Shown here: positions 11,972 to 22,762 of the stretch, in pieces
Position numbering within the stretch: position 1 is the first letter of the stretch
Layout: every line of letters begins with the position of its first letter
From: Rhizobium sp. PP-CC-3A-592
GTDB taxonomy: Bacteria > Pseudomonadota > Alphaproteobacteria > Rhizobiales > Rhizobiaceae
Assembly (NCBI RefSeq): GCF_003217095.1
Contig: NZ_QJSR01000001.1
Coordinates: 1 to 64,000, forward strand
Length of the DNA stretch: 64,000 nt
Reading direction: 5' to 3'
Notes under the pieces: model-generated
Database searches by the model: none
What the model was told of the DNA's origin: nothing
What the model saw: the letters and a program-made list of their open reading frames with translations, nothing else
Made by a program: the position numbers and the translations under genes

Positions 11972-12046
11972 TCCCTGGTAGCTCAGCGGTAGAGCATTCG
12001 ACTGTTAATCGACAGGTCGCCGGTTCGAATCCGGCCCGGGGAGCCA
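11972..12046 (+). tRNA. tRNA-Asn (GTT)
   Basis: A 75-base cloverleaf. The acceptor TCCCTGG pairs with CCGGGGA, the anticodon loop carries GTT within CGACTGTTAATCG, the T-loop is GGTTCGAATCC and CCA is encoded. Confidence 0.97.
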
Positions 12047-12182
12047 TTTTCTCACTTGAGATCATGGCACGTGGCTTAGGTCACACGACTACCGCACCAT
12101 CCTTCATACTGTTCCGTTTCTCCGTCCAGGCCGGAACATTTGTCTTTACCTTGTGTTTTCCGGTCATCACGGAGAGTAAATC

Positions 12183-12365
12183 ATGGGTAACAGCGACCAT
12201 AACGGCACGTCCGAGCAGAAACGTCCGACCGATGTCAATCCGACGGCAGATGACTCCGCCGTGGATGAAAAAGATTCTATTGCTCCGACATTCGTCAAAC
12301 CTGCAGACGAGAAGGACGTCAGCGAACGGCCAGTGGTCAATCCCGTGACAGGCGGAGCTTTTTAG
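12183..12365 (+). CDS. Small polar unknown protein (60 aa)
   Basis: A 60-residue protein almost without hydrophobic residues, rich in Asp, Glu, Lys, Asn and Pro, so probably disordered. GGAGAG before the ATG supports translation. It ends two bases before the lipoprotein gene, suggesting a two-gene operon. No family recognised. Confidence 0.55.
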   Translation: MGNSDHNGTSEQKRPTDVNPTADDSAVDEKDSIAPTFVKPADEKDVSERPVVNPVTGGAF

Positions 12366-12367
12366 GG

Positions 12368-12655
12368 ATGCGGCCGATGGTGAAATTCGGGACACTGGTG
12401 ATTGTCGGTGGTTTGGCCCTTACGGCATGCACACCGTACGAAGTGCAACCTATTCCCGGCAGCATCACCTACGGGGGACATCAGCCACGAACGAAGCTGA
12501 CGAAGTCGCCGATTGGCAGTACGTTCACCAACCAAATTACTGATGAATACGGCTGTATGGCGATGGAGACCTACCGTATTGAACCGGACAGATCATTGAA
12601 ACTCCTTCGCCGTTCACGCTTGGCCTCTTCTGGCGGATTCGGCTTTTCCTGCTGA
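12368..12655 (+). CDS. Small lipoprotein (95 aa)
   Basis: The N-terminus has a short basic start, a hydrophobic stretch and the lipobox LTAC at about residue 21, predicting lipid attachment and an envelope location. The mature part is about 75 residues with a Cys-containing middle (DEYGCMAMETYRIE) and a C-terminal cysteine. An internal ATG at 12377 is an alternative start. Its gene follows the small polar protein by two bases. Function unknown. Confidence 0.65.
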   Translation: MRPMVKFGTLVIVGGLALTACTPYEVQPIPGSITYGGHQPRTKLTKSPIGSTFTNQITDEYGCMAMETYRIEPDRSLKLLRRSRLASSGGFGFSC

Positions 12656-12722
12656 GAGTTAAGCATGCCCACCGGGTCCGTGGCGGCTCGGTCGCGGCAT
12701 TCATATGTTTTTGAAACCTTCT

Positions 12723-12750
12723 TGATCCACACCCCGTCCTTGATCGTAAG
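12723..12750 (+). promoter_or_regulatory. ECF11 (RpoE/ChrR-type) promoter of the phrB operon
   Basis: TGATCC (12723-12728), exactly 18 bases, TAAG (12747-12750), placed 27 bases before the phrB start codon. This is the -35/-10 pattern described for the singlet-oxygen sigma factor RpoE of Rhodobacter sphaeroides. The same ten bases with the same spacing stand upstream of chrR at 21467-21494 on the other strand. Seen directly; the sigma assignment is from family knowledge. Confidence 0.75.
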
Positions 12751-12777
12751 ACCGGCAAAGGGAACAGACGGATCAAG

Positions 12778-14229
12778 ATGGACGACGTGCATCAACGGGA
12801 CCAGAGCCCGATCATTGTATGGTTTCGCAAGGACCTTCGGACGGACGATAACCGTGCGCTGGCATCTGCTTCCGAAACAGGCCGTCCGGTCCTTCCGCTT
12901 TACATTCGTGAAGACAATTCCGAGACCGGTCCCCTCGGCGAAGCGCAGGCCTGGTGGCTGCACCATTCGCTGACCGCGCTTTCCGCGCAGATCGAGACCT
13001 GCGGTTCACGCCTCATTCTGATGAGTGGTGAAGCAGAGGCGGTTCTCCGGCAGGTCATCAAGGACACCGGCGCCTCCGCTGTCTTCTGGAACCGTCGATA
13101 TGATCCTGCCGGCATGAAGATCGATACGAAGCTGAAAGAGGTCCTCTCTAAAGATGGGCTGGAGACGGCGAGCTTTGCCGGAGCGCTCATGCATGAGCCG
13201 TCTCGCGTGAAGACAAAGACCGGCGGTCCTTACCGGGTCTACACACCGTTCTGGCGTGCCATAGAGGCCAGTGGCGAGCCGCCCGAGCCCGTGGACGCTC
13301 CGGAAAAATTGCCAGCGCCGAAGACGTTCCCGCGGTCGGAGACGCTCAAGGACTGGGGCCTGTTGCCGAAGCTCGAATGGGCTGCGGATTTTTCGCGGCG
13401 CTGGGAGCCGGGCGAAGCCTCCGCCCGGGAAAAGCTCAATGATTTCACAGACGGCACAATCGACGGATATCGCGAGTCGCGCGAGCGAACCTGGGAAGCG
13501 GGAACGTCGTGTCTCTCGCCGCATCTGGCCATGGGCGAGATTTCTCCGGCCCGTATCTGGCACGCGACGCGCGGCCTGTCGAAGGCCGACTCGGCGGACG
13601 TGATCACGTTCCGCAAGGAGCTGGTTTGGCGGGAGTTCGCCTATCATCTCCTGTTCCACAATCCTGACATGCCGACCGAGAGCCTGAACCGGAAATACGA
13701 CAAGCTCGGCTGGACGAATGGCGACGACGATTTCGATCGTTGGAAGACGGGCTTGACGGGTTTTCCGATCGTTGACGCCGGCATGCGCGAACTCTGGCGC
13801 TTCGGGACGATGCACAATCGTGTCCGCATGATCGTCGGGTCATTTCTGGTGAAGGATCTGCTGATCGACTGGCGGCGGGGCGAGCGCTGGTTCCGCGACA
13901 CGCTTGTGGATGCCGACCCTGCGAGCAATGCCATGAACTGGCAATGGGTTGCCGGTTGCGGCGCCGATGCCTCGCCCTTCTTCCGTGTCTTCAACCCGAT
14001 CACGCAGGGCGAAAAGTTCGATACCGACGGGCTGTACGTCCGTGAGCACGTGCCGGAACTTGCCGACATGCCGAGCGACTGGATCCATCATCCGTTCGAC
14101 GCACCGTCCACCGTCCTCACCAAGGCCGGTGTAACGCTGGGCGAAACCTACCCCAAACCGATCGTCGACCACGCCAAGGCGCGGGATCGCGCGCTTGCCG
14201 CCTACCGCAACATCAAGGATGCCGCATGA
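12778..14229 (+). CDS. phrB: Deoxyribodipyrimidine photolyase
   Basis: Uses blue light and reduced FAD to split cyclobutane pyrimidine dimers in DNA. The 483 residues hold an N-terminal alpha/beta antenna-binding domain (IIVWFRKDLRTDDNRAL at residues 12-28) and a helical FAD domain from about residue 200 (SCLSPHLAMGEISPARIW), ending in the strongly conserved NAMNWQWVAGCGADASPFF and RVFNPITQGEKFD. It fits the CPD photolyase classes; a cryptochrome-like role cannot be excluded from sequence. It is the first gene of a seven-gene operon and its promoter matches the RpoE/ChrR consensus. The next gene overlaps its stop by four bases. Confidence 0.93.
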   Translation: MDDVHQRDQSPIIVWFRKDLRTDDNRALASASETGRPVLPLYIREDNSETGPLGEAQAWWLHHSLTALSAQIETCGSRLILMSGEAEAVLRQVIKDTGASAVFWNRRYDPAGMKIDTKLKEVLSKDGLETASFAGALMHEPSRVKTKTGGPYRVYTPFWRAIEASGEPPEPVDAPEKLPAPKTFPRSETLKDWGLLPKLEWAADFSRRWEPGEASAREKLNDFTDGTIDGYRESRERTWEAGTSCLSPHLAMGEISPARIWHATRGLSKADSADVITFRKELVWREFAYHLLFHNPDMPTESLNRKYDKLGWTNGDDDFDRWKTGLTGFPIVDAGMRELWRFGTMHNRVRMIVGSFLVKDLLIDWRRGERWFRDTLVDADPASNAMNWQWVAGCGADASPFFRVFNPITQGEKFDTDGLYVREHVPELADMPSDWIHHPFDAPSTVLTKAGVTLGETYPKPIVDHAKARDRALAAYRNIKDAA

Positions 14230-15566
14230 CCTCCACTCTCTCCGCCGGCATCCCTTCCACGAACGGCCGACTCTCGATCGCCGTTGTCGGCTCGGGCATT
14301 TCCGGCAGTTCGGCGGCCTGGGCCCTGCGCGACGTTCACGACGTGACACTGTATGAGAAGGCCGAGCGGGCTGGCGGGCATACGGCGACGGTCGAGGTCG
14401 ATTACGACGGGCAGCGGATTTCGGTCGATACGGGTTTCATCGTCTACAACGAGCCGAACTATCCGAACCTGAAAGCGCTTTTTGCCGAACTCGACGTCGA
14501 GACGCTACCGAGCAGCATGAGCTTTGCTCTGTCGCTCGACCATGGCGCGCTCGAATGGCGCGGCGGGCCTTTCACGGGTCTCTTCGCGCAGAAGCGGAAC
14601 ATGCTGCGTCCGTCCTTCCTCCTGATGTTGCGCGAGATCCTGCGCTTCAACAAGATCTGCCTCGTCGATCGCGATGCTGGCCGGCTTTCGGAAATGTCGA
14701 TCGGGGACTATCTCGACTGGCGCCGTTTCTCGCCCGGCTTCACCAACAACTACCTGCTGCCGATGGCGGCCGCGATCTGGTCGGCGCCTGCCGCCAAGAT
14801 GCTGGAGTTTCCGGCCGATCACTTCATCCAGTTCTTCGACAATCACCGCCTCGTCTACGCGACGCCCCATCCGTGGCGCACGGTGGCAGGTGGTAGCCGG
14901 GTCTATCTCGACAAGCTGCTGGGACCCCTCGGCAACCGGCTGAAGCTGAACTGCGGAATCCGCTCCATCCGCCGAGACGGTCGAAAGGTGCACGTGACGC
15001 AAGACGATGGCACGGTGCGGGTCTACGACAAGATCATCATCGCGTCTCATTCGGATCAGGCTCTCGCCATGCTAGCGGACACTACGCCGCAGGAGCGCGC
15101 CGTGCTGGAAGCCGTGCCTTACAAGCCGAATCGCGTTGTTCTACACCGGGATGTGGCCCTGATGCCGAAGCGGCAGAAGGTCTGGGCGTCGTGGAACTAC
15201 CTTCGCTCGACACGCCCGGGCTCAGACAGCCAGGTGGCGGTGACCTATTGGATGAACAGCCTGCAAGCGATCGACCCTGCCTGCCCGCTGTTCGTCACAT
15301 TGAACCCCGAACGCGAGCCCGATCCACGTCTGGTCTTTGCCGAGTACACCTACGACCATCCGCAGTTCGATGCCCGCTCCATCGACGCGCAGCGACGCCT
15401 GAAGACCATCCAGGGCAATAACAATACGTTCTTTGCCGGTGCGTGGACGGGTTACGGCTTCCATGAAGATGGCTTGTCGTCTGGCTTGGCAGCGGCGGAA
15501 ACGCTTGGCGGCATCATACCGTGGCGGCTTGCTCCGGCCGCGATCTTCGCCGAAGCTGCGGAATGA
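14226..15566 (+). CDS. FAD-dependent amine-oxidase-like protein
   Basis: A flavoprotein of 446 residues with an N-terminal Rossmann dinucleotide motif (VVGSGISGSSAAWAL, about residues 20-34), an acidic residue ending the second strand (LYEKAERAGGHTATVEVD), and a C-terminal FAD closing motif (FFAGAWTGYGFHEDGLSSG). It belongs to the NAD(P)-binding/amine-oxidase-like family that is regularly found next to DUF1365 and a cyclopropane-fatty-acid-synthase-like enzyme. In R. sphaeroides a protein of this kind belongs to the RpoE regulon and relatives act on fatty acyl chains; a role in lipid oxidation here is inference. Coupled to phrB and to DUF1365 by 4-bp overlaps. Confidence 0.85.
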   Translation: MTSTLSAGIPSTNGRLSIAVVGSGISGSSAAWALRDVHDVTLYEKAERAGGHTATVEVDYDGQRISVDTGFIVYNEPNYPNLKALFAELDVETLPSSMSFALSLDHGALEWRGGPFTGLFAQKRNMLRPSFLLMLREILRFNKICLVDRDAGRLSEMSIGDYLDWRRFSPGFTNNYLLPMAAAIWSAPAAKMLEFPADHFIQFFDNHRLVYATPHPWRTVAGGSRVYLDKLLGPLGNRLKLNCGIRSIRRDGRKVHVTQDDGTVRVYDKIIIASHSDQALAMLADTTPQERAVLEAVPYKPNRVVLHRDVALMPKRQKVWASWNYLRSTRPGSDSQVAVTYWMNSLQAIDPACPLFVTLNPEREPDPRLVFAEYTYDHPQFDARSIDAQRRLKTIQGNNNTFFAGAWTGYGFHEDGLSSGLAAAETLGGIIPWRLAPAAIFAEAAE

Positions 15567-16462
15567 CCGATACGCCTCCCAATGTAGGACGCCTGCATGC
15601 ACCGCCGTCGGAGCCGGCGTTGCTTTATGCCGGCGACGTCATGCACCAGCGCGTGAAGCCGCTCGGGCACAGGTTTTCCTACAGCGTCTTTTCGCTGATG
15701 GTGGATCTCGACCGACTTGATGCAGCAGACGCGCAAAGCCGTGTGTTTTCCGTCGATCGCTTCAATGTCCTGTCGTTCCACCAGAGCGACCATTCCGGAC
15801 GCACGGACATTTCGCTGCGCGCCTATGTCGATGGCCTGCTTGCCGATGCTGGTGTTTCTGCGCCTGCGGCTCGGATCCTCCTTGTCTGCTATCCGCGCAT
15901 TCTCGGCTGGGTCTTTAATCCCCTCGCCGTCTACTACGCCTATGACACGTCCGATGCGCTGGTGGCGCTGGTTTACGAGGTGCGCAATACGTTCGGCGAG
16001 CGGCATAGCTATGTCTGCCCGATCTCATCCGGGCAAGTGAGCGATGCCGGTGTTCGGCAGGAATGCGACAAGATCTTCCATGTGTCGCCCTTCATGCCCA
16101 TGGCCATGCGCTACCGGTTTCGCATGGTCCCGCCAGGCAAGGATATCCGCTGGCGGATTCTGGAGACGGATGCCGAGGGACCTGTGCTTTCGGCAACCTT
16201 CTCCGGCCATGCGCAACCGCTGACGACGAGCACTATTCTGCGTCTCGTCGGCCGTATTCCCCACCTTACTTTGAAGATCGTGGCCGGCATTCATTGGGAG
16301 GCGGCGAAGCTGTGGTGGAGGGGAGCGCGATATATCTCCCGGCCCACACCACCCGCCCCGACCAGCGTCTGGACCGATGACCGCCGCCGTGACGAGCCGG
16401 CACCGCGCCGACTGTCGCCACAACCCACCTCCCACCGAGAGACTTGCAGCCCGGCCGAATAA
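15563..16462 (+). CDS. DUF1365 domain-containing protein
   Basis: A 299-residue protein starting at an ATG that overlaps the preceding stop. Family marks are LYAGDVMHQRVKPLGHRFSY near the start, LLVCYPRILGWVFNPLAVYY in the middle, and KIFHVSPFMPMAMRYRFR. DUF1365 proteins have no settled activity but almost always sit beside the FAD protein and CFA-synthase-like gene seen here, which points to work on the same lipid substrate. The C-terminal 45 residues are proline/arginine rich and probably disordered. Confidence 0.87.
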   Translation: MTDTPPNVGRLHAPPSEPALLYAGDVMHQRVKPLGHRFSYSVFSLMVDLDRLDAADAQSRVFSVDRFNVLSFHQSDHSGRTDISLRAYVDGLLADAGVSAPAARILLVCYPRILGWVFNPLAVYYAYDTSDALVALVYEVRNTFGERHSYVCPISSGQVSDAGVRQECDKIFHVSPFMPMAMRYRFRMVPPGKDIRWRILETDAEGPVLSATFSGHAQPLTTSTILRLVGRIPHLTLKIVAGIHWEAAKLWWRGARYISRPTPPAPTSVWTDDRRRDEPAPRRLSPQPTSHRETCSPAE

Positions 16463-16504
16463 GGCTATTTTGTGTAAGTCCGATGTTTGCCGAAAGGTTG
16501 TGCG

Positions 16505-17758
16505 ATGCGTTCAGCTGAAACATGGCGCGATGAGAAGTCGCCCGCAGAGCGTCTGTCCAAGGACAATATTTCTCGTTTCATCAAAGGTTTGCCGGCGAAA
16601 GCTCAGATGGTGCTTCGCGGCCTCGTCAATATGGAGGCAGGCTGCCTGCAACTGACGCTGCCCGATGGCCGGACCTTCGTCATCAAGGGCCGGGCGCAGG
16701 GCCCCGAGGCAGCCGTGACGTTGCACAATTGGAACCTGCCCCAGCGTGCGCTGACCAACGGAACCATCGGCGTGGCCGAAAGCTACATGGATGGCGACTG
16801 GGACAGCCCTGATGTCGGGGCATTCCTCGAGCTCTTCCTCGTCAATGCGGAGATGGGTCGTCACTTCCCGAACGGGGCTCGCGGCATTTTGCGCTTCGTC
16901 GAGAAAATGCGTCACTGGATGAACGCCAACACGAAGGCAGGCTCCAAGCGCAACATCTCCGCCCATTACGACCTTGGCAACACGTTCTATGCGCAATGGC
17001 TCGACCCGTCGATGACCTACTCCTCGGCGCTCTACGCCACGGGCGCCAACGACCTTCAGTCGGCCCAGCGGGCGAAATACAAGGCGCTGGCGGATGCCGC
17101 GGGTATCAGGCCGGCCGACCATGTGCTCGAAATCGGCTGCGGCTGGGGTGGCTTTGCGGAATATGCGGCCGGCGAAATCGGATGCCGCGTGACGGGCCTG
17201 ACGATCAGCCGCGAGCAGCTCGATTTCGCCCGCGCCCGGATGGAAAAGGCCGGCCTCTCCGACAAGGTCGACATCAAGTTCCAGGACTACCGCGACGAGG
17301 CGGGAACCTATGACAAGGTTGTCTCCATCGAGATGTTCGAGGCCGTCGGCGAAAAGTATTGGCCGACCTATTTCTCGCAGGTCCGCCGCTGCCTGAAGCC
17401 CGGCGGTCGCGCCGGCTTTCAGATCATCACCATCAAGCCGGAATCCTATCGCGAGTATCGTGCCAATCCGGACTTCATCCAAAAATATGTCTTCCCCGGC
17501 GGCATGTTGCCGACACGCGAGCATCTGGTTTCGCTCGGTTCCAAGGTCGGACTGAAAATGGTCGGGGATCTCGGCTTCGGCCTCGACTATGCTCGAACGC
17601 TCGCCGAATGGCGGGAGCGCTTCTGGTCGGTCTGGCCGAAGATCGAGCCGCTGGGCTTCGATATCCGCTTCAAGCGGCTCTGGGAGTTCTATCTGTTCTA
17701 TTGCGAAGCCGGGTTCCGCGCGAAGAATATCGACGTCCGACAGGTCGTCTATGAATGA
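16505..17758 (+). CDS. cfa: Cyclopropane-fatty-acyl-phospholipid synthase-like methyltransferase
   Basis: Transfers a methyl(ene) group from SAM to unsaturated acyl chains in membrane phospholipids. The 417-residue protein has the CFA synthase order: an N-terminal lipid-binding region, TYSSALY, the SAM site LEIGCGWGGFAEYAA near residue 208, and SIEMFEAVGEKYWPTYF. AAAGG eight bases before the ATG at 16505 favours this start over a TTG at 16487. Proteins of this group include both true cyclopropane synthases and the methylases of furan fatty acid synthesis, and the sequence alone does not decide between them. The MFS gene starts inside its last codons (8-bp overlap). Confidence 0.88.
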   Translation: MRSAETWRDEKSPAERLSKDNISRFIKGLPAKAQMVLRGLVNMEAGCLQLTLPDGRTFVIKGRAQGPEAAVTLHNWNLPQRALTNGTIGVAESYMDGDWDSPDVGAFLELFLVNAEMGRHFPNGARGILRFVEKMRHWMNANTKAGSKRNISAHYDLGNTFYAQWLDPSMTYSSALYATGANDLQSAQRAKYKALADAAGIRPADHVLEIGCGWGGFAEYAAGEIGCRVTGLTISREQLDFARARMEKAGLSDKVDIKFQDYRDEAGTYDKVVSIEMFEAVGEKYWPTYFSQVRRCLKPGGRAGFQIITIKPESYREYRANPDFIQKYVFPGGMLPTREHLVSLGSKVGLKMVGDLGFGLDYARTLAEWRERFWSVWPKIEPLGFDIRFKRLWEFYLFYCEAGFRAKNIDVRQVVYE

Positions 17759-19112
17759 TCTCCCGGACGGGACGCGCGAATCCGCCCGTCTTTCGGATGC
17801 GAAGCTCCCGGTACGCGTCCTCCTCGCCTACGCCCTGCCCGCCGCACCGCTGGCAGCGCTCGGCCTTCCCCTCTACTCGCTCGTGCCGACCTATTACACC
17901 GAGACGCTCAGTGTGCCGATCGCGACGGCCGGTTGGGTGATCCTGTTGATCCGCCTGTTCGACGCGATCTCGGACCCGCTGGTGGGTTATGCTGCCGACC
18001 GCATGGATCCCGCTTTCGGCCGCCGCCGGCTGCTGTTCCTGATGTCGCTTCCGGTCGCGGCCCTCGCCGCCGTCATGCTCTACTGGCCGGCAGAGACGGC
18101 GGGTGCCGGATGGTTCGGGTTCTGGGGATGCGTCGTGTCGCTCGGCTTCACCATGGCCATGGTGCCCTATTCCGCCTGGGGCGCGGAGCTCGTTGGCGAC
18201 TATCATGGTCGAACCCGGCTCTCCGCCTTCCGCGAGACCTTCACGCTGATCGGCACGCTGATCGCCATCGTCCTGCCTTTTGCCATCGGCTTCGAGCAGA
18301 AAGGACTTTCCGGTCTGGCGGTGCTCGGCATCGTCGTCGGCCTCGGCCTGCTCATCCTCGGCGGGCTGACCGTCCGTATGGTGCCCGAACCTGAGAACCG
18401 CACGCAGGAGCGGCTGTCACTGCCGGATGCGCTGCGCTTTCTTGCGAGCAACAAACCGTTTCTGCGGCTGGTCCTTGCCTACTTCCTCAATGGGCTTGCA
18501 AACGGCATTCCGGCGACGCTGTTTCTCTACTTCGTCTCCGCGCGGCTTGGCCTGCCGGAGATGCGCGGGCCGCTGCTGTTTCTCTACTTCCTCTGCGCCA
18601 TCGGCGGTGTGCCGCTTGCCAGTGTCTGTGCCGCCCGCTTCGGCAAGCACCGCGCCTGGTCGGTCGCCATGCTCGGCGCCTGTGCCGTTTTCCTGCTGGC
18701 ACCGCTCCTGCCGCCGGGTAGCCTTTACGGCTTCGGCGCCATCTGCGTCGTCACGGGCATTCTCCTCGGGTTCGATCTGGCGCTCCCGCCATCCATCCAG
18801 GCCGATGTCATCGATGCGGATACGGCCGTCTCCGGCGAGCAGAGGGGCGGCTTCTACTTCGCGGCCTGGGGGCTGGCGACGAAGCTGTCGCTGGCGATCG
18901 GCGCCGGGCTGGTCTTTCCGATCCTGTCTGCGGCCGGGTTCGACCCCGCGGCAGGCGCCGATAACAGCGCCGATGCGCTGTTCGCGCTCGCCGCGCTCTA
19001 TGCCTGGGTGCCGGTCGCGTTGAAACTCTGCGCCATCGCGCTGATGTGGACATTTCCGCTGGACGAACGCATGCAGCGTCAGCTACGCGAGGCGATCGCA
19101 CCGACCGCCTGA
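17751..19112 (+). CDS. MFS transporter of the cation-sugar symporter (GPH) type
   Basis: A polytopic protein of 453 residues with about twelve hydrophobic helices. The loop motifs RLFDAISDPLVGYAADR and GRRRLLFLMSLP are those of the melibiose-permease-like glycoside-pentoside-hexuronide family. Because it sits in a lipid/photolyase operon, its substrate is probably not a sugar; members of this family adjoin the same genes in other proteobacteria. The ATG at 17751 overlaps the cfa stop by 8 bases; a second frame opening at 17755 is not protein-like. Export or import cannot be decided. Confidence 0.85.
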   Translation: MNDLPDGTRESARLSDAKLPVRVLLAYALPAAPLAALGLPLYSLVPTYYTETLSVPIATAGWVILLIRLFDAISDPLVGYAADRMDPAFGRRRLLFLMSLPVAALAAVMLYWPAETAGAGWFGFWGCVVSLGFTMAMVPYSAWGAELVGDYHGRTRLSAFRETFTLIGTLIAIVLPFAIGFEQKGLSGLAVLGIVVGLGLLILGGLTVRMVPEPENRTQERLSLPDALRFLASNKPFLRLVLAYFLNGLANGIPATLFLYFVSARLGLPEMRGPLLFLYFLCAIGGVPLASVCAARFGKHRAWSVAMLGACAVFLLAPLLPPGSLYGFGAICVVTGILLGFDLALPPSIQADVIDADTAVSGEQRGGFYFAAWGLATKLSLAIGAGLVFPILSAAGFDPAAGADNSADALFALAALYAWVPVALKLCAIALMWTFPLDERMQRQLREAIAPTA

Positions 19113-19118
19113 GAGATC

Positions 19119-19523
19119 ATGACACACGAACCGTCCCTGCCCGCCGGTCCGCGCCAAGACCGCCGGCTTGCCTGGCTCTTCCTTGCGCTCGCCATCGTCA
19201 TCGAGGTGATCGGCCTCACCGTCATGAAAGCCGCCAGCGTTTCCGGTGGAATGGGCGGTTACATCGTGATGTATGTGGCGATCGCGCTTTCCTATGTCTG
19301 TCTGGCGAAGGCCGTGCGAACCCTGCCGGTCGGCGTCGCCTATGCCATCTGGGAAGGGTCGGGCATTGCGCTGATCACGCTTGTGTCAGTGTTCTTCTTC
19401 CACCACGACCTCAGCCTTCGGGAGTTCATCGGGCTCGCCATGGCCGTTCTCGGCATCATCCTCGTCAATGCGGGCGAGGACCATGGAACCGCGCCTGCGG
19501 AGGCCACCGATGAGCCTGCCTGA
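19119..19523 (+). CDS. mdtJ: SMR exporter subunit, MdtJ-like
   Basis: Four-helix small multidrug resistance protein of 134 residues with a 16-residue polar N-terminal extension. The proton/substrate-coupling glutamate of the first helix is present (Glu29 in LALAIVIEVIGLTVMK). The segments ASVSGGMGGYIVMYVAIALS and GVAYAIWEGSGIALIT resemble E. coli MdtJ, which with MdtI exports spermidine. It starts six bases after the MFS gene and overlaps mdtI by 14 bases, so the two subunits are likely made together as a heteromer. The substrate is inferred only. Confidence 0.82.
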   Translation: MTHEPSLPAGPRQDRRLAWLFLALAIVIEVIGLTVMKAASVSGGMGGYIVMYVAIALSYVCLAKAVRTLPVGVAYAIWEGSGIALITLVSVFFFHHDLSLREFIGLAMAVLGIILVNAGEDHGTAPAEATDEPA

Positions 19524-19836
19524 GCTGCCCTTCATCCTCGCCGTCCTCGCGGGCCTGTTCGATGTCGCCGCAAACCTTGCCTCCAGCAAATCCGAAGGCT
19601 TCTCCCGCAAGGGCTGGGGTTTTCTGTCGATCCTGCTGGTGCTCGTGGCCTTCGCGCTTCTGGCGGAAGCCGTGCGCGGCATGGATCTGGCCGTTGCCTA
19701 CGGTATTCTCGGCGCGACCGGAATTTTCGGAACGGCTATCAGCGCGCGGTTGCTGTTCAAGCAGAAATTGAAGCCGATCGGCTGGGTCGGGCTGGCGCTC
19801 GTGTTCGGCGCCGTGCTCGTGCTTCACACGGCCTGA
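19510..19836 (+). CDS. mdtI: SMR exporter subunit, MdtI-like
   Basis: The partner SMR subunit, 108 residues and four helices. SEGFSRKGWGFLSILLVLVA and RGMDLAVAYGILGATGIFGT match the MdtI type. The usual first-helix glutamate is replaced by Asp18 (LAGLFDVAANLASSKS). This may be tolerated because the partner keeps its glutamate. It begins inside the last codons of mdtJ, and its 3' end overlaps the convergent dehydrogenase gene by 13 bases. Confidence 0.8.
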   Translation: MSLPELPFILAVLAGLFDVAANLASSKSEGFSRKGWGFLSILLVLVAFALLAEAVRGMDLAVAYGILGATGIFGTAISARLLFKQKLKPIGWVGLALVFGAVLVLHTA

Positions 19837-20663
19837 GGCTCTTCCGGCTTACCGCCTGGCAGCCGCGCCTTGACAGACGGCCGCTTCTTCCAGCCCGTTG
19901 CAGCATTGATGAGTGGGAAATACAGCCAATAGGGCAGGATGTTGATGAACTTCAGGACATAGGTGAAGCGCTTCGGAAAGGTGATCTCGAAGCCCGAGCC
20001 CTGAAGTCCCGCAACGATCGCGCCTGCCGCCTCTTCCGGCGAGACCAGTGCCGGCATGGGGAAGGCGTTTTCCTTGGTTGCCGGCGTATCCACGAAGCCC
20101 GGATTGACCACCTGAATGCGGATGCCCTGCTTGTCCAGATCGAACTTGAGACTTTCCGCCATATTGATCAGGGCGGCTTTCGTCGCACCATAAGCTCCGC
20201 TCGTCGGCAGACCGCCATAGCCGGTGACGGAGGAGACGACGGCGATCTGTCCCTGCCCGCGCGCCTTCATGTGGCGGATCGCGGGCAGCAGGCAATTCAC
20301 CACGCCGTTCAGGTTGACCGAAAAGGTCTCCTGAAAGTCTTCGAGATGCAGATCCTCGCCATGGACCGGCTTGAAGACACCGGCATTGAGCGCCACCAGC
20401 GCCAGCGTGCCGTGATCATATTCGATCGAAGCGATCACCCGTTCCATGTCTTCAGGATCGGTCACGTCGCCATCGAGCACGATGATGCGACCGGGACCCG
20501 TCGCCTCGCGCTGCAGGGCCACCAGCTTGTCATGGCTGCGCGCGGTAACCACCACGCCGAAGCCTTCGGCCACCAGCTTCAGGGCCAGCGCCCGACCGAT
20601 GCCCGAACTGGCACCCGTGACCCAGGCAAGACCATGTTCCGGGCGTGCGATGAAAGACGACAT
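19824..20663 (-). CDS. Short-chain dehydrogenase/reductase
   Basis: A classical SDR of 279 residues. The NAD(P) motif is TGASSGIGRALALKL (about residues 17-31) and the catalytic set is Ser (VVSSVTGYGG) with Tyr and Lys in SGAYGATKAALINMAESL. The C-terminus carries a hydrophobic segment (VLKFINILPYWLYFPLINAA), which suggests membrane association and a lipid-like substrate. GGGAG upstream of the ATG at 20663 decides the start over longer forms. It lies 99 bases downstream of chrR on the same strand and is probably co-transcribed; an SDR is also part of the RpoE regulon cluster in R. sphaeroides. Confidence 0.88.
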   Translation of the reverse strand: MSSFIARPEHGLAWVTGASSGIGRALALKLVAEGFGVVVTARSHDKLVALQREATGPGRIIVLDGDVTDPEDMERVIASIEYDHGTLALVALNAGVFKPVHGEDLHLEDFQETFSVNLNGVVNCLLPAIRHMKARGQGQIAVVSSVTGYGGLPTSGAYGATKAALINMAESLKFDLDKQGIRIQVVNPGFVDTPATKENAFPMPALVSPEEAAGAIVAGLQGSGFEITFPKRFTYVLKFINILPYWLYFPLINAATGWKKRPSVKARLPGGKPEEPQAV

Positions 20664-20762
20664 GTTCCGTTTCTCCCAGGCGCGCAATATGCCTGTTTCC
20701 AGTGATCTGGTGATGAAGTAGAGCGGCGGCGATATCCGGAAAGACGCGTTCCTTGCGGCGTT

Positions 20763-21413
20763 TCAGCCGATCAGGTCGCCAAGGCGACGGCTGAGAGAAC
20801 CACGCAATTTGACCGGTGCATCGGTCACCGCGAAAACGATACAGTGTTCGCCGCCCTCGGCGATGGGACGATGGTCCAAACTGTCGTCGGCAACCGAGAT
20901 GTCCCCCCGACCAAAGCGGCCCCTGACATCGCTGAACGCGCCGTGCAGCACCAGCGACAGCTCGAAACCCTCATGCGTATGCTCTGGAATGGCCCGGCCC
21001 GGCCGGATGCGATAGAACGAGACATCGCAGCCGTCGATCTTGCCCAGCGCATATTCTTTCAACCCGGGAAGCTTCCAGCGCCAAGGTACATCGTGCCTGT
21101 CAAAGCCGGCAAACGCCCGCAACACGCCTGGCCATGCCTCGTGATCAGCATCATGGGGCCTTGGCGCTGTGGCGAGCGATAAAGGAGAGCTGGAAAGGAT
21201 GGCAGCGATGCTGCTTTCGGGATCGGATAGGGGTGAAGGTTCGAGCGTTTCGACAAGATCTCCGGCCACTGCCTCGAATGCCGCGACCGTTTGCCGATTG
21301 ACAGATTGCAGTTCGAGATGCGCCGCAACGAGAACGCGGGCAGGCTCTGGCAGAATGCCAGCCGCGTAATGCGCCATCAGCGCATCGACCGTATCGAGTT
21401 CACTCGTCGTCAT
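20763..21413 (-). CDS. chrR: ChrR-family anti-sigma/cupin protein with a degenerate zinc site
   Basis: Resembles ChrR, which holds sigma factor RpoE inactive until singlet oxygen appears. The 216 residues have an N-terminal anti-sigma-like part (VDALMAHYAAGILPEP, then VAAHLELQSVNRQTV) and a C-terminal cupin (about 105-205) with a likely metal set, EHTHEGFELSLVLHG and DSLDHRP. Of the four zinc ligands of R. sphaeroides ChrR (His6, His31, Cys35, Cys38) only the second is kept, as His32; Asp7, Gln36 and Asn39 take the other places. No sigma factor gene adjoins it. Its own promoter has the RpoE-type pattern. Sigma binding in this variant is unproven. Confidence 0.8.
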   Translation of the reverse strand: MTTSELDTVDALMAHYAAGILPEPARVLVAAHLELQSVNRQTVAAFEAVAGDLVETLEPSPLSDPESSIAAILSSSPLSLATAPRPHDADHEAWPGVLRAFAGFDRHDVPWRWKLPGLKEYALGKIDGCDVSFYRIRPGRAIPEHTHEGFELSLVLHGAFSDVRGRFGRGDISVADDSLDHRPIAEGGEHCIVFAVTDAPVKLRGSLSRRLGDLIG

Positions 21414-21718
21414 CACACTCTGTCCACTGCCCCCTCCCGAGGGCCTCCCTTAGACGATAATGATTTCTTACGATCCTGTCTTCGCCATGGATCACCGAAT
21501 TGTGCTTTGTGCACTTCAAGACGAATATTGCGCCGGAGCGCCGCGCCGCAAAACCGTTTTCCTTGCGGCCGGCTCTTTGCAGCGGCAAAAGAAGCGAAGA
21601 CCATCCCGCGGAATTCGGCCGCGTTCTCTGCCGGCCTTGCCGCCGCCTCGCGTCCGGCTATGTTGCGCTGAAGCCCGCCAACGCTTCCATTGCGATTCTC
21701 CTTCAAGAGGTCCCACAC
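21414..21718. other. Divergent control region between chrR and cysK
   Basis: No gene is supported here; frames that run through lack ribosome-binding sites. It holds the RpoE-type promoter of chrR on the minus strand (21467-21494) and, on the plus strand, a weak sigma-70-like pair CTTGCC (21636-21641) and CTATGT (21658-21663), spacer 16, that could drive cysK. Confidence 0.55.
21467..21494 (-). promoter_or_regulatory. ECF11 (RpoE/ChrR-type) promoter of chrR
   Basis: On the minus strand TGATCC (21494-21489), exactly 18 bases, TAAG (21470-21467), about 54 bases before the chrR start codon. It is identical in both boxes and spacing to the phrB promoter at 12723-12750. The pattern matches the RpoE consensus of R. 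sphaeroides, where rpoE-chrR is itself a target. Confidence 0.75.
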
Positions 21719-22762
21719 ATGCCCGCACTGAATTCCGTTCTCGACGCCATCGGCAACACGCCTCTCATCCGCTTAAAGGCGGCGTCGGATGCGACCGGCT
21801 GCACGATTCTCGGAAAGGCCGAGTTTCTCAATCCCGGGCAGTCGGTCAAGGACCGCGCGGCGCTCTCGATCATTCGCGAAGCGGAGCGTCAGGGCACGCT
21901 GCGCCCGGGCGGCGTCATCGTCGAGGGAACGGCGGGCAATACGGGAATCGGTCTTGCCCTGGTCGCGCAGGCGCTCGGCTATCGCACCGTCATCGTCATC
22001 CCGGAAACGCAGAGCCAGGAAAAGAAGGACGCGCTGAAGCTGCTGGGGGCAGAGCTCGTCGAGGTTCCCGCCGTTCCCTACCGCAATCCGAACAATTACG
22101 TGAAGCTCTCCGGCCGCCTCGCCGAGCAGCTGGCGCGGACCGAGCCGAATGGCGCGATCTGGGCCAACCAGTTCGACAACACGGCCAACCGGGCAGCGCA
22201 TATCGAGACGACAGCGCCGGAAATCTGGCGCGACACCGACGGCAAGGTCGATGGCTTCATCTGCGCGGTCGGCTCCGGCGGAACGCTTGCCGGCGTCGCG
22301 GAGGGCCTGCGCGGATTCAATCCGGATATCAAGATCGGACTGGCGGACCCGGAAGGGGCCGCCCTTTTCAGCTACTACACCGAGGGCGAGTTCTCGGCGC
22401 CGGGCAGTTCGATCACCGAAGGCATCGGTCAGGGCCGTATCACGGCGAACCTCGAAGGGTTCACGCCGGACTATTCCTACCGCATCCCCGACACAGAAGC
22501 GGTTCCGCTGGTGTTCGACCTCATCGAAAAGGAAGGCCTTTGCCTCGGTGGTTCGTCCGGCATCAACATCGCCGGCGCGATTCGGATGGCGCGGGATCTT
22601 GGACCGGGACATACGATCGTGACGATCCTCTGCGACTATGGCAATCGCTACCAGTCGAAGCTGTTCAATCCGGATTTCCTGAAGTCTAAGGGCCTGCCGG
22701 TTCCAGACTTCCTGACCCGGCACAGCAAGATCGATGTTCCCTACGAAGCTGCAAGCGCCTGA
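21719..22762 (+). CDS. cysK: Cysteine synthase (O-acetylserine sulfhydrylase)
   Basis: PLP enzyme making cysteine from O-acetylserine and sulfide, 347 residues. The PLP lysine lies in NPGQSVKDRAALS, the substrate loop is EGTAGNTGIG, and the phosphate-binding loop is AVGSGGTLAG. The C-terminal extension (from about residue 310) is longer than in E. coli CysK, as often seen in alphaproteobacteria. A cystathionine-beta-synthase-like activity is a less likely alternative. The ATG at 21719 matches the family's start; the upstream open frame is not protein-like. alaX begins 4 bases after its stop and sseA follows, making a sulfur/cysteine-related operon. Confidence 0.9.
   Translation: MPALNSVLDAIGNTPLIRLKAASDATGCTILGKAEFLNPGQSVKDRAALSIIREAERQGTLRPGGVIVEGTAGNTGIGLALVAQALGYRTVIVIPETQSQEKKDALKLLGAELVEVPAVPYRNPNNYVKLSGRLAEQLARTEPNGAIWANQFDNTANRAAHIETTAPEIWRDTDGKVDGFICAVGSGGTLAGVAEGLRGFNPDIKIGLADPEGAALFSYYTEGEFSAPGSSITEGIGQGRITANLEGFTPDYSYRIPDTEAVPLVFDLIEKEGLCLGGSSGINIAGAIRMARDLGPGHTIVTILCDYGNRYQSKLFNPDFLKSKGLPVPDFLTRHSKIDVPYEAASA

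Follow-up and report, generated by a model that had tools for sequence, protein, structure and literature searches.

A candidate split, zinc-finger-free form of the RpoE-ChrR circuit behind two matching promoters in Rhizobium sp. PP-CC-3A-592

Two convergent rows of genes in Rhizobium sp. PP-CC-3A-592 each begin with the same promoter-like element, TGATCC-N18-TAAG. They lie in a stretch of 64,000 nucleotides (contig NZ_QJSR01000001.1, positions 1 to 64,000), hereafter the window, and their first genes encode a photolyase (phr) and a protein of the ChrR family (here chrR-B). TGATCC-N18-TAAG is the consensus of Rhodobacter sphaeroides, in which photolyase is a target of the sigma factor RpoE. 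A preliminary description had read the locus as a singlet-oxygen regulon of the RpoE-ChrR kind. Which sigma factor reads the two sites, and what does ChrR-B do to it? Our best reading is that the locus belongs to a conserved arrangement in which ChrR is split from its sigma factor and has no zinc finger, a new form of the known RpoE-ChrR circuit.

Two sites and an unlinked sigma gene

We found two exact matches to TGATCC-N18-TAAG in the window, at 12723-12750 on the forward strand and at 21494-21467 on the reverse strand, and this rescan returned both positions of the preliminary description unchanged. The first site ends 27 bases before the phr ATG (12778) and the second 53 bases before the chrR-B ATG (21413), in agreement with the 27-54 bases given earlier. 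The element had been called rare by chance, with about 0.1 copies expected. Dinucleotide shuffles of the window (n = 100) gave even fewer, with a mean of 0.01, and none of the 100 reached two. In both copies the element extends to TGATCC-N16-CGTAAG, which we annotate as an ECF11/RpoE-type promoter of the phr operon (12723-12728 and 12745-12750, forward) and of the operon formed by chrR-B and a short-chain dehydrogenase/reductase (SDR) gene (21467-21494, reverse).

The genome has 11 Sigma70_r2 matches. One of them lies on a contig other than that of chrR-B (G000:C4:194238-194807, reverse strand) and encodes a protein, sigma-B, whose best PDB match is R. sphaeroides RpoE (E 1e-41; next PDB protein 1e-16); the ECF11 label is given by this similarity to RpoE and not by an ECF11 class model. 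Sigma-B stands alone, with a convergent DUF1232 gene next to it downstream. In the 11 sigma-B loci that we viewed, a convergent DUF1232-like gene followed in 10 and other open reading frames (ORFs) in L107, and a DUF1232 relative was found in 28 of 30 sigma-B loci. A hidden anti-sigma gene beside sigma-B was also considered; none was recognised by eye in 11 of the 30 loci, most of whose ORFs had no domain search.

We searched 199 genomes of the family for full-length ChrR and for the sigma factor, which revealed two forms of the system. In type A (49 genomes), sigma and ChrR genes are adjacent, 12-33 bases apart in all 49 pairs. In type B (42 genomes from 24 genera), ChrR scores lower and the sigma factor is closer to that of the window organism, the cut being at least 185 bits to the latter. 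At this cut, sigma-B and chrR-B co-occur in the same 42 of the 199 genomes, and the other 157 have neither. The two genes lie on different contigs in 37 of the 42 genomes and on one contig, 1.1-2.7 Mb apart, in five; they are linked in none. A second set consisted of the best 80 of 102 named relatives, with up to 9 kb on each side of chrR; these partly overlap the 42 family genomes, and the two counts are not independent. No sigma gene was matched next to chrR-B in the window stretch, in 39 type-B stretches or in the 80 named loci, which rules out a degraded rpoE beside chrR.

Identity to RpoE was 41-52% for 30 type-B and 41-49% for 31 type-A sigma factors. In quick trees, 30 type-B sigma factors (of 42) formed one clade (support 0.83), as did 40 type-B ChrR proteins (0.94). 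The type-A sigma factors were not a clade of their own, and R. sphaeroides RpoE stood beside type B. Two genomes, G103 and G175, hold both a canonical linked pair and a split pair. Across the family the two forms have one promoter motif in common, and cross-talk between them is therefore expected in G103 and G175. In genera g59 and g105, one sampled genome is canonical and another split, so the whole unlinked pair seems to be gained or lost together.

Across relatives, the conserved motif was TGATCC-N16-CGTA, with CGTA as the -10 core. The bases after CGTA vary among 73 exact N16 chrR promoters, which rules out TAAG as a general -10 element; TAAG is mostly the form of the window's genus. The preliminary description had called the sites RpoE/ChrR-type promoters and had made this depend on an ECF11 sigma gene in the genome. 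An RpoE-like sigma gene is present, and that part stands, but its -10 element has to be replaced by CGTA.

An exact TGATCC-N15/16-CGTA lies upstream of type-B chrR in 39 of the 42 family genomes (37/40 plus 2/2) and 74 of the 80 named relatives. The N15 spacer occurred once in each set, and the remaining genes had sites with 8-9 of the 10 letters. Among shuffled upstream regions (n = 2000), none reached 10/10 letters and 34 reached 9/10. On the other side of the locus, phr was the outermost gene found in 52 of the 80 named loci, where the exact motif preceded it in 46 and a site with 9/10 letters in the other six. For 19 loci, the outermost gene within the fetched stretch was a different member of the row, without a site above 8/10; some of these may lack phr, and in others the stretch ends early. 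The last nine loci contained no gene of the convergent row that we could find. In 29 of 31 type-A loci, the same motif lies upstream of the sigma gene of the rpoE-chrR pair, so that the split form shares its promoter core, as well as homologous sigma and ChrR proteins, with its canonical relatives. Eighteen of 34 genomes without this sigma factor (E 1e-25) and without full-length ChrR have phr; in all 18 the exact motif is missing upstream of it, the best sites matching 7-8 of 10 letters. The motif before phr depends on the presence of this sigma factor.

Could the two sites nevertheless be chance matches, or belong to another of the 11 sigma factors? TGATCC-N16-CGTA occurs 0-19 times per genome across the family regardless of this sigma factor, as such a view would predict. 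Against it stand the 0.01 copies of TGATCC-N18-TAAG expected in the window, the conservation of the motif at the same two gene starts (74/80 for chrR and 46/52 for phr) and its absence before phr in all 18 genomes without the sigma factor. We regard this explanation as highly improbable, and it is almost certain that an RpoE/ECF11-type sigma factor uses both window sites as promoters. The evidence for them is position and conservation, not copy number. A genome-wide scan for TGATCC-N18-TAAG, as proposed in the preliminary description, returned four exact sites in 5.12 Mb. Two are those of the window, but the other two look spurious by eye, and both are without CGTA: one starts at the stop codon of a phosphatase-like gene, past which lies a convergent gene, and one lies between two LysR-like genes. 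A search for sigma-70-like promoters found none in 12300-22000, against 1.7 expected, and an Rfam search of 12000-22000 gave no match.

A ChrR protein without the zinc motif

ChrR-B (20763-21413, reverse strand) matches TIGR02451 with 146.1 bits (cut-off 124.5) and PDB entry 2z2s_B with an E-value of 1e-33. It is the only full-length TIGR02451 match in the genome; a second match (C8:97004) covers the cupin part only and was ruled out as another ChrR. Its nearest named relatives, from Ferranicluibacter rubi (95%), Rhizobiales isolate AFS017967 (91%), Rhizobium sp. NFR03 (89%) and Rhizobium sp. Leaf371 (83%), show the window to come from a member of the Rhizobiaceae close to these.

In an alignment with R. 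sphaeroides ChrR, the H-x3-C-x2-C motif reads H-L-E-L-Q-S-V-N in ChrR-B, and residue 6 is not His. Of the four zinc ligands in the anti-sigma domain, ChrR-B is thus without three, His6, Cys35 and Cys38, and by H-x3-C-x2-C and His6 it is not a zinc anti-sigma (ZAS) protein. This holds throughout type B: HxxxCxxC is absent and residue 6 is not His in all 42 family genomes and all 80 named relatives. The cupin ligands His141, His143, Glu147 and His177 are all kept in the window protein, in 40/40 family proteins and in 80/80 named relatives. Cys187 is likewise kept in 40/40 and 80/80, whereas Cys189 occurs in only 7/40 and 3/80. Type-A ChrR proteins differ in keeping the zinc cysteines: in 31 of the 49 loci (the 30 that scored best plus that of G008), Cys35 is present in 30 and Cys38 in 29. 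The linked pair of G008 (locus L082) has a ChrR that is also without Cys35 and Cys38; it may be an intermediate or have lost the finger independently.

An AlphaFold2 model of ChrR-B (mean pLDDT 86.2, pTM 0.79) shows four helices and a further short one, then the cupin, and a last helix at the C-terminus. In structure comparison, the chains that it matched best were those of ChrR in 2q1z and 2z2s. The N-terminal helical domain is conserved and was predicted with high confidence.

These features bear on the preliminary description, which took the locus for a fully canonical RpoE-ChrR singlet-oxygen circuit. The promoter core is the same, the targets are similar, the sigma factor is RpoE-like and ChrR-B exceeds the TIGR02451 cut-off. 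The photolyase and lipid genes are of families found in the R. sphaeroides regulon, but chrR-B is neither linked to rpoE nor equipped with the zinc ligands. In addition, no exact TGATCC-N15..17-CGTA was found within 300 bases upstream of sigma-B in any of the 30 loci examined (of 42). Because there is no rpoE-chrR operon and the zinc motif is lost, the canonical reading is already contradicted on these two points, and we consider it very improbable.

A further explanation is that ChrR-B has no anti-sigma activity and is only a member of the regulon, for instance as a cupin for the binding or processing of an oxidised lipid, while sigma-B is controlled by transcription, proteolysis or an unrecognised anti-sigma factor. 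That every type-B protein of both sets (42 and 80) has lost the three R. sphaeroides zinc ligands, that no sigma gene lies near chrR-B and that the set of cupin ligands is full would all fit this. However, the N-terminal helical domain is still conserved and confidently predicted, and all 42 sigma-B genomes have chrR-B while the other 157 do not. Inspection of the 11 sigma loci by eye showed no anti-sigma-like ORF. Finally, the divergence of chrR-B follows that of sigma-B beyond the background: with cysK, the neighbour of chrR, and DUF1232, the neighbour of sigma-B, as controls, the partial correlation was 0.60 (permutation p 0.0005; 26 of the 42 genomes), compared to 0.05 between chrR-B and cysK and -0.20 between chrR-B and DUF1232. 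We therefore consider it unlikely that ChrR-B is a mere regulon member.

The proposed circuit

Instead, the locus is probably part of a split, zinc-finger-free RpoE-ChrR variant in which ChrR-B is the cognate anti-sigma factor of a stand-alone sigma-B and acts by negative feedback. Sigma-B would drive both the row phr-ufaD-ufaO-ufaM-MFS-SMR-SMR (ufa-like lipid genes and transporter genes, described below) and chrR-SDR. Since ChrR-B is without the three zinc ligands and has kept the fold and the cupin, it should bind its sigma factor without a finger and sense by the cupin. We infer that it binds and inhibits sigma-B independently of zinc; it would hold it through helix packing of a zinc-free helical bundle and would read stress through the metal-binding cupin. 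The signal may be singlet oxygen or lipid or organic peroxides. Stress would free sigma-B and induce the repair genes, the furan-lipid genes and sigma-B's own inhibitor, and not the sigma gene itself. The induced ChrR-B would then shut the response off. Because chrR, and not the sigma gene, bears the promoter of the sigma factor, this would be a pure negative-feedback loop.

Several observations weigh against this proposal. In R. sphaeroides, the zinc of the anti-sigma domain is required for inhibition, according to part of PMC6852236, so its loss could mean that the anti-sigma function was lost. Near the N-terminus, among the eight residues preceding residue 9, 7 of the 42 and 37 of the 80 type-B proteins have a His other than at position 6, and these may conceivably have another metal site. 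One genome that is 88% complete (G053) has a stand-alone sigma factor with 173 bits, the next match under the 185-bit cut, and no detectable full-length ChrR; counted in, it is the one exception to the co-occurrence. In the divergence test, sigma-B also had partial correlations of 0.30 with cysK and 0.38 with DUF1232, and a partial Mantel test can overstate coevolution. The scan upstream of sigma-B spanned 30 of the 42 genomes and 300 bases in each. Lastly, exact TGATCC-N16-CGTA was not commoner in the 42 sigma-B genomes (2-15 per genome) than in 46 others (0-19), of which 12 hold the canonical pair. Genome-wide enrichment of the motif, which was not seen in the per-genome counts, is therefore discarded as proof of a regulon; either the regulon has to be a small one, or weaker, inexact sites escaped the scan.

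The G053 sigma gene lies at C2:218741-219277 (locus L225), near a DUF1232-like ORF. A re-search with a type-B profile found no full-length ChrR in G053 or in the 34 genomes without this sigma factor; from G131 it yielded the known canonical adjacent ChrR.

The proposed circuit shares with the R. sphaeroides RpoE-ChrR (ECF11) system an RpoE-like sigma factor, the ChrR fold and cupin ligands, and ufaD-, ufaO- and ufaM-like genes. It differs in that the sigma and ChrR genes are unlinked, the sigma gene has no exact promoter of its own type, and His6, Cys35, Cys38 and mostly also Cys189 are absent from ChrR. Type-A loci differ further from type B in gene order: the ufaD-like gene is divergent from rpoE in 28 of 31, and no cysK match was found in the fetched stretches. 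Anti-sigma domains that are free of zinc exist, as the sections of PMC7406223 on RseA and RskA (class I) describe. ChrR-B would resemble them in that its helical anti-sigma domain works with no zinc motif, but here the domain is on a ChrR-family cupin protein whose type-A relatives keep that motif. A distant anti-sigma gene also has a parallel in RsiA1 of the Sinorhizobium meliloti RpoE2 system, whose operon also encodes another inhibitor, RsiA2 (both from part of PMC8103513). Unlike RpoE2, the window genome has its only full-length ChrR unlinked from the sigma gene, as do all 42 type-B genomes. We found no earlier report of an unlinked or zinc-finger-free ChrR in the open-licence literature; an earlier mention is possible in Dufour 2008 and Casas-Pastor 2021.

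More broadly, the chances are about even that in a wide lineage of Rhizobiaceae the ChrR anti-sigma factor works without a zinc finger, with sensing wholly in the cupin and a split operon that gives a negative-feedback pulse. If so, a self-amplifying operon was turned into a pure negative-feedback pulse, with the inhibitor alone under the control of the sigma factor, and the zinc finger, which has been proposed as the singlet-oxygen sensor, is dispensable. In R. sphaeroides ChrR, the cupin is needed for the response and the finger for inhibition (parts of PMC6852236 and PMC6432622). The part of PMC6432622 on the finger calls its role as the singlet-oxygen sensor "under debate", and that of PMC6852236 on the response calls the precise role of zinc "unknown". 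A large natural family that has the cupin, the fold and the promoter but no finger is a ready-made test of this role. It also offers a concrete case for a question raised in part of PMC8103513, namely how sigma factors without a neighbouring anti-sigma gene are controlled, as the candidate inhibitor is recognisable by the sigma factor's own promoter and by co-occurrence.

Gene content and further motif copies

Each of the two rows is presumably one transcript. The photolyase row begins with phr (12778-14229, forward), of the DNA photolyase/cryptochrome family (PF00875, PF03441). Its stop is overlapped by a ufaD-like gene (14226-15566) for an oxidoreductase/desaturase dependent on flavin adenine dinucleotide (FAD; PF01593, PF13450), with weak matches to phytoene desaturase and protoporphyrinogen oxidase. 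The ATG of the next gene (15563-16462), encoding a ufaO-like DUF1365 protein (PF07103, E 5e-80), overlaps the ufaD-like stop. The third lipid gene (16505-17758; alternative start TTG at 16487) is ufaM/cfa-like and encodes a fatty-acyl methyltransferase (PF02353, E 3e-80) dependent on S-adenosylmethionine (SAM). The sections of PMC7380195 on the furan-fatty-acid enzymes of R. sphaeroides describe UfaD as FAD-binding and desaturase-like, UfaO as a DUF1365 protein and UfaM as a SAM-dependent methylase. Because their families match these descriptions, the three genes are probably a complete ufaD-ufaO-ufaM set, an assignment that rests on family membership rather than on alignment with the R. sphaeroides enzymes themselves.

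Three transporter genes follow on the same strand. The first (17751-19112) encodes an MFS_2/GPH-type transporter (PF13347; TIGR00792 below cut-off). The other two encode small multidrug resistance (SMR) transporters (PF00893), one MdtJ-like (19119-19523) and one MdtI-like (19510-19836), with these as best NCBIfam matches, both below cut-off; the MdtI-like start was picked by eye inside the ORF 19381-19836. This overlapping SMR pair (19119-19836) ends the photolyase row, and among 40 loci an SMR match was otherwise found only in the two genus mates and G175. Rhizobiaceae are mostly not photosynthetic; the photolyase and furan-lipid-type set across many of them suggests a common light- or lipid-stress response.

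The SDR oxidoreductase gene (19824-20663, reverse; PF00106) is the second gene of the chrR operon. It is convergent with the MdtI-like gene, and their 3' ends overlap by 13 bases. In 79 of the 80 named loci it was, of ten window genes searched for, the nearest on its side of chrR. On the other side this was true of a cysK-like gene in 80 of 80. The latter (21719-22762, forward; NF007989 over cut-off) is divergent and bounds the locus; it is a marker of conserved synteny outside the circuit.

Exact TGATCC-N16-CGTA occurs at four sites in the genome, before phr, before chrR-B and twice on contig C1. At the third site (C1:642107-642132, reverse; locus L123), the gene 76 bases downstream is small and has a response-regulator gene behind it; the regulon may thus include a two-component system. 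The fourth (C1:964891-964916, forward; locus L124) lies 34 bases before a small gene with a product of 127 residues. Both small proteins look exported by eye and neither matches Pfam, so that a PepSY-like identity of the one before the response regulator was dropped. In each of the two genus mates, G094 and G169, the sites listed include ones whose spacers closely resemble those of all four; for the two extra sites, this compares sites and spacers only. Upstream of the locus, a tRNA-Asn (gtt) gene lies at 11972-12046, with a spurious ORF running across it.

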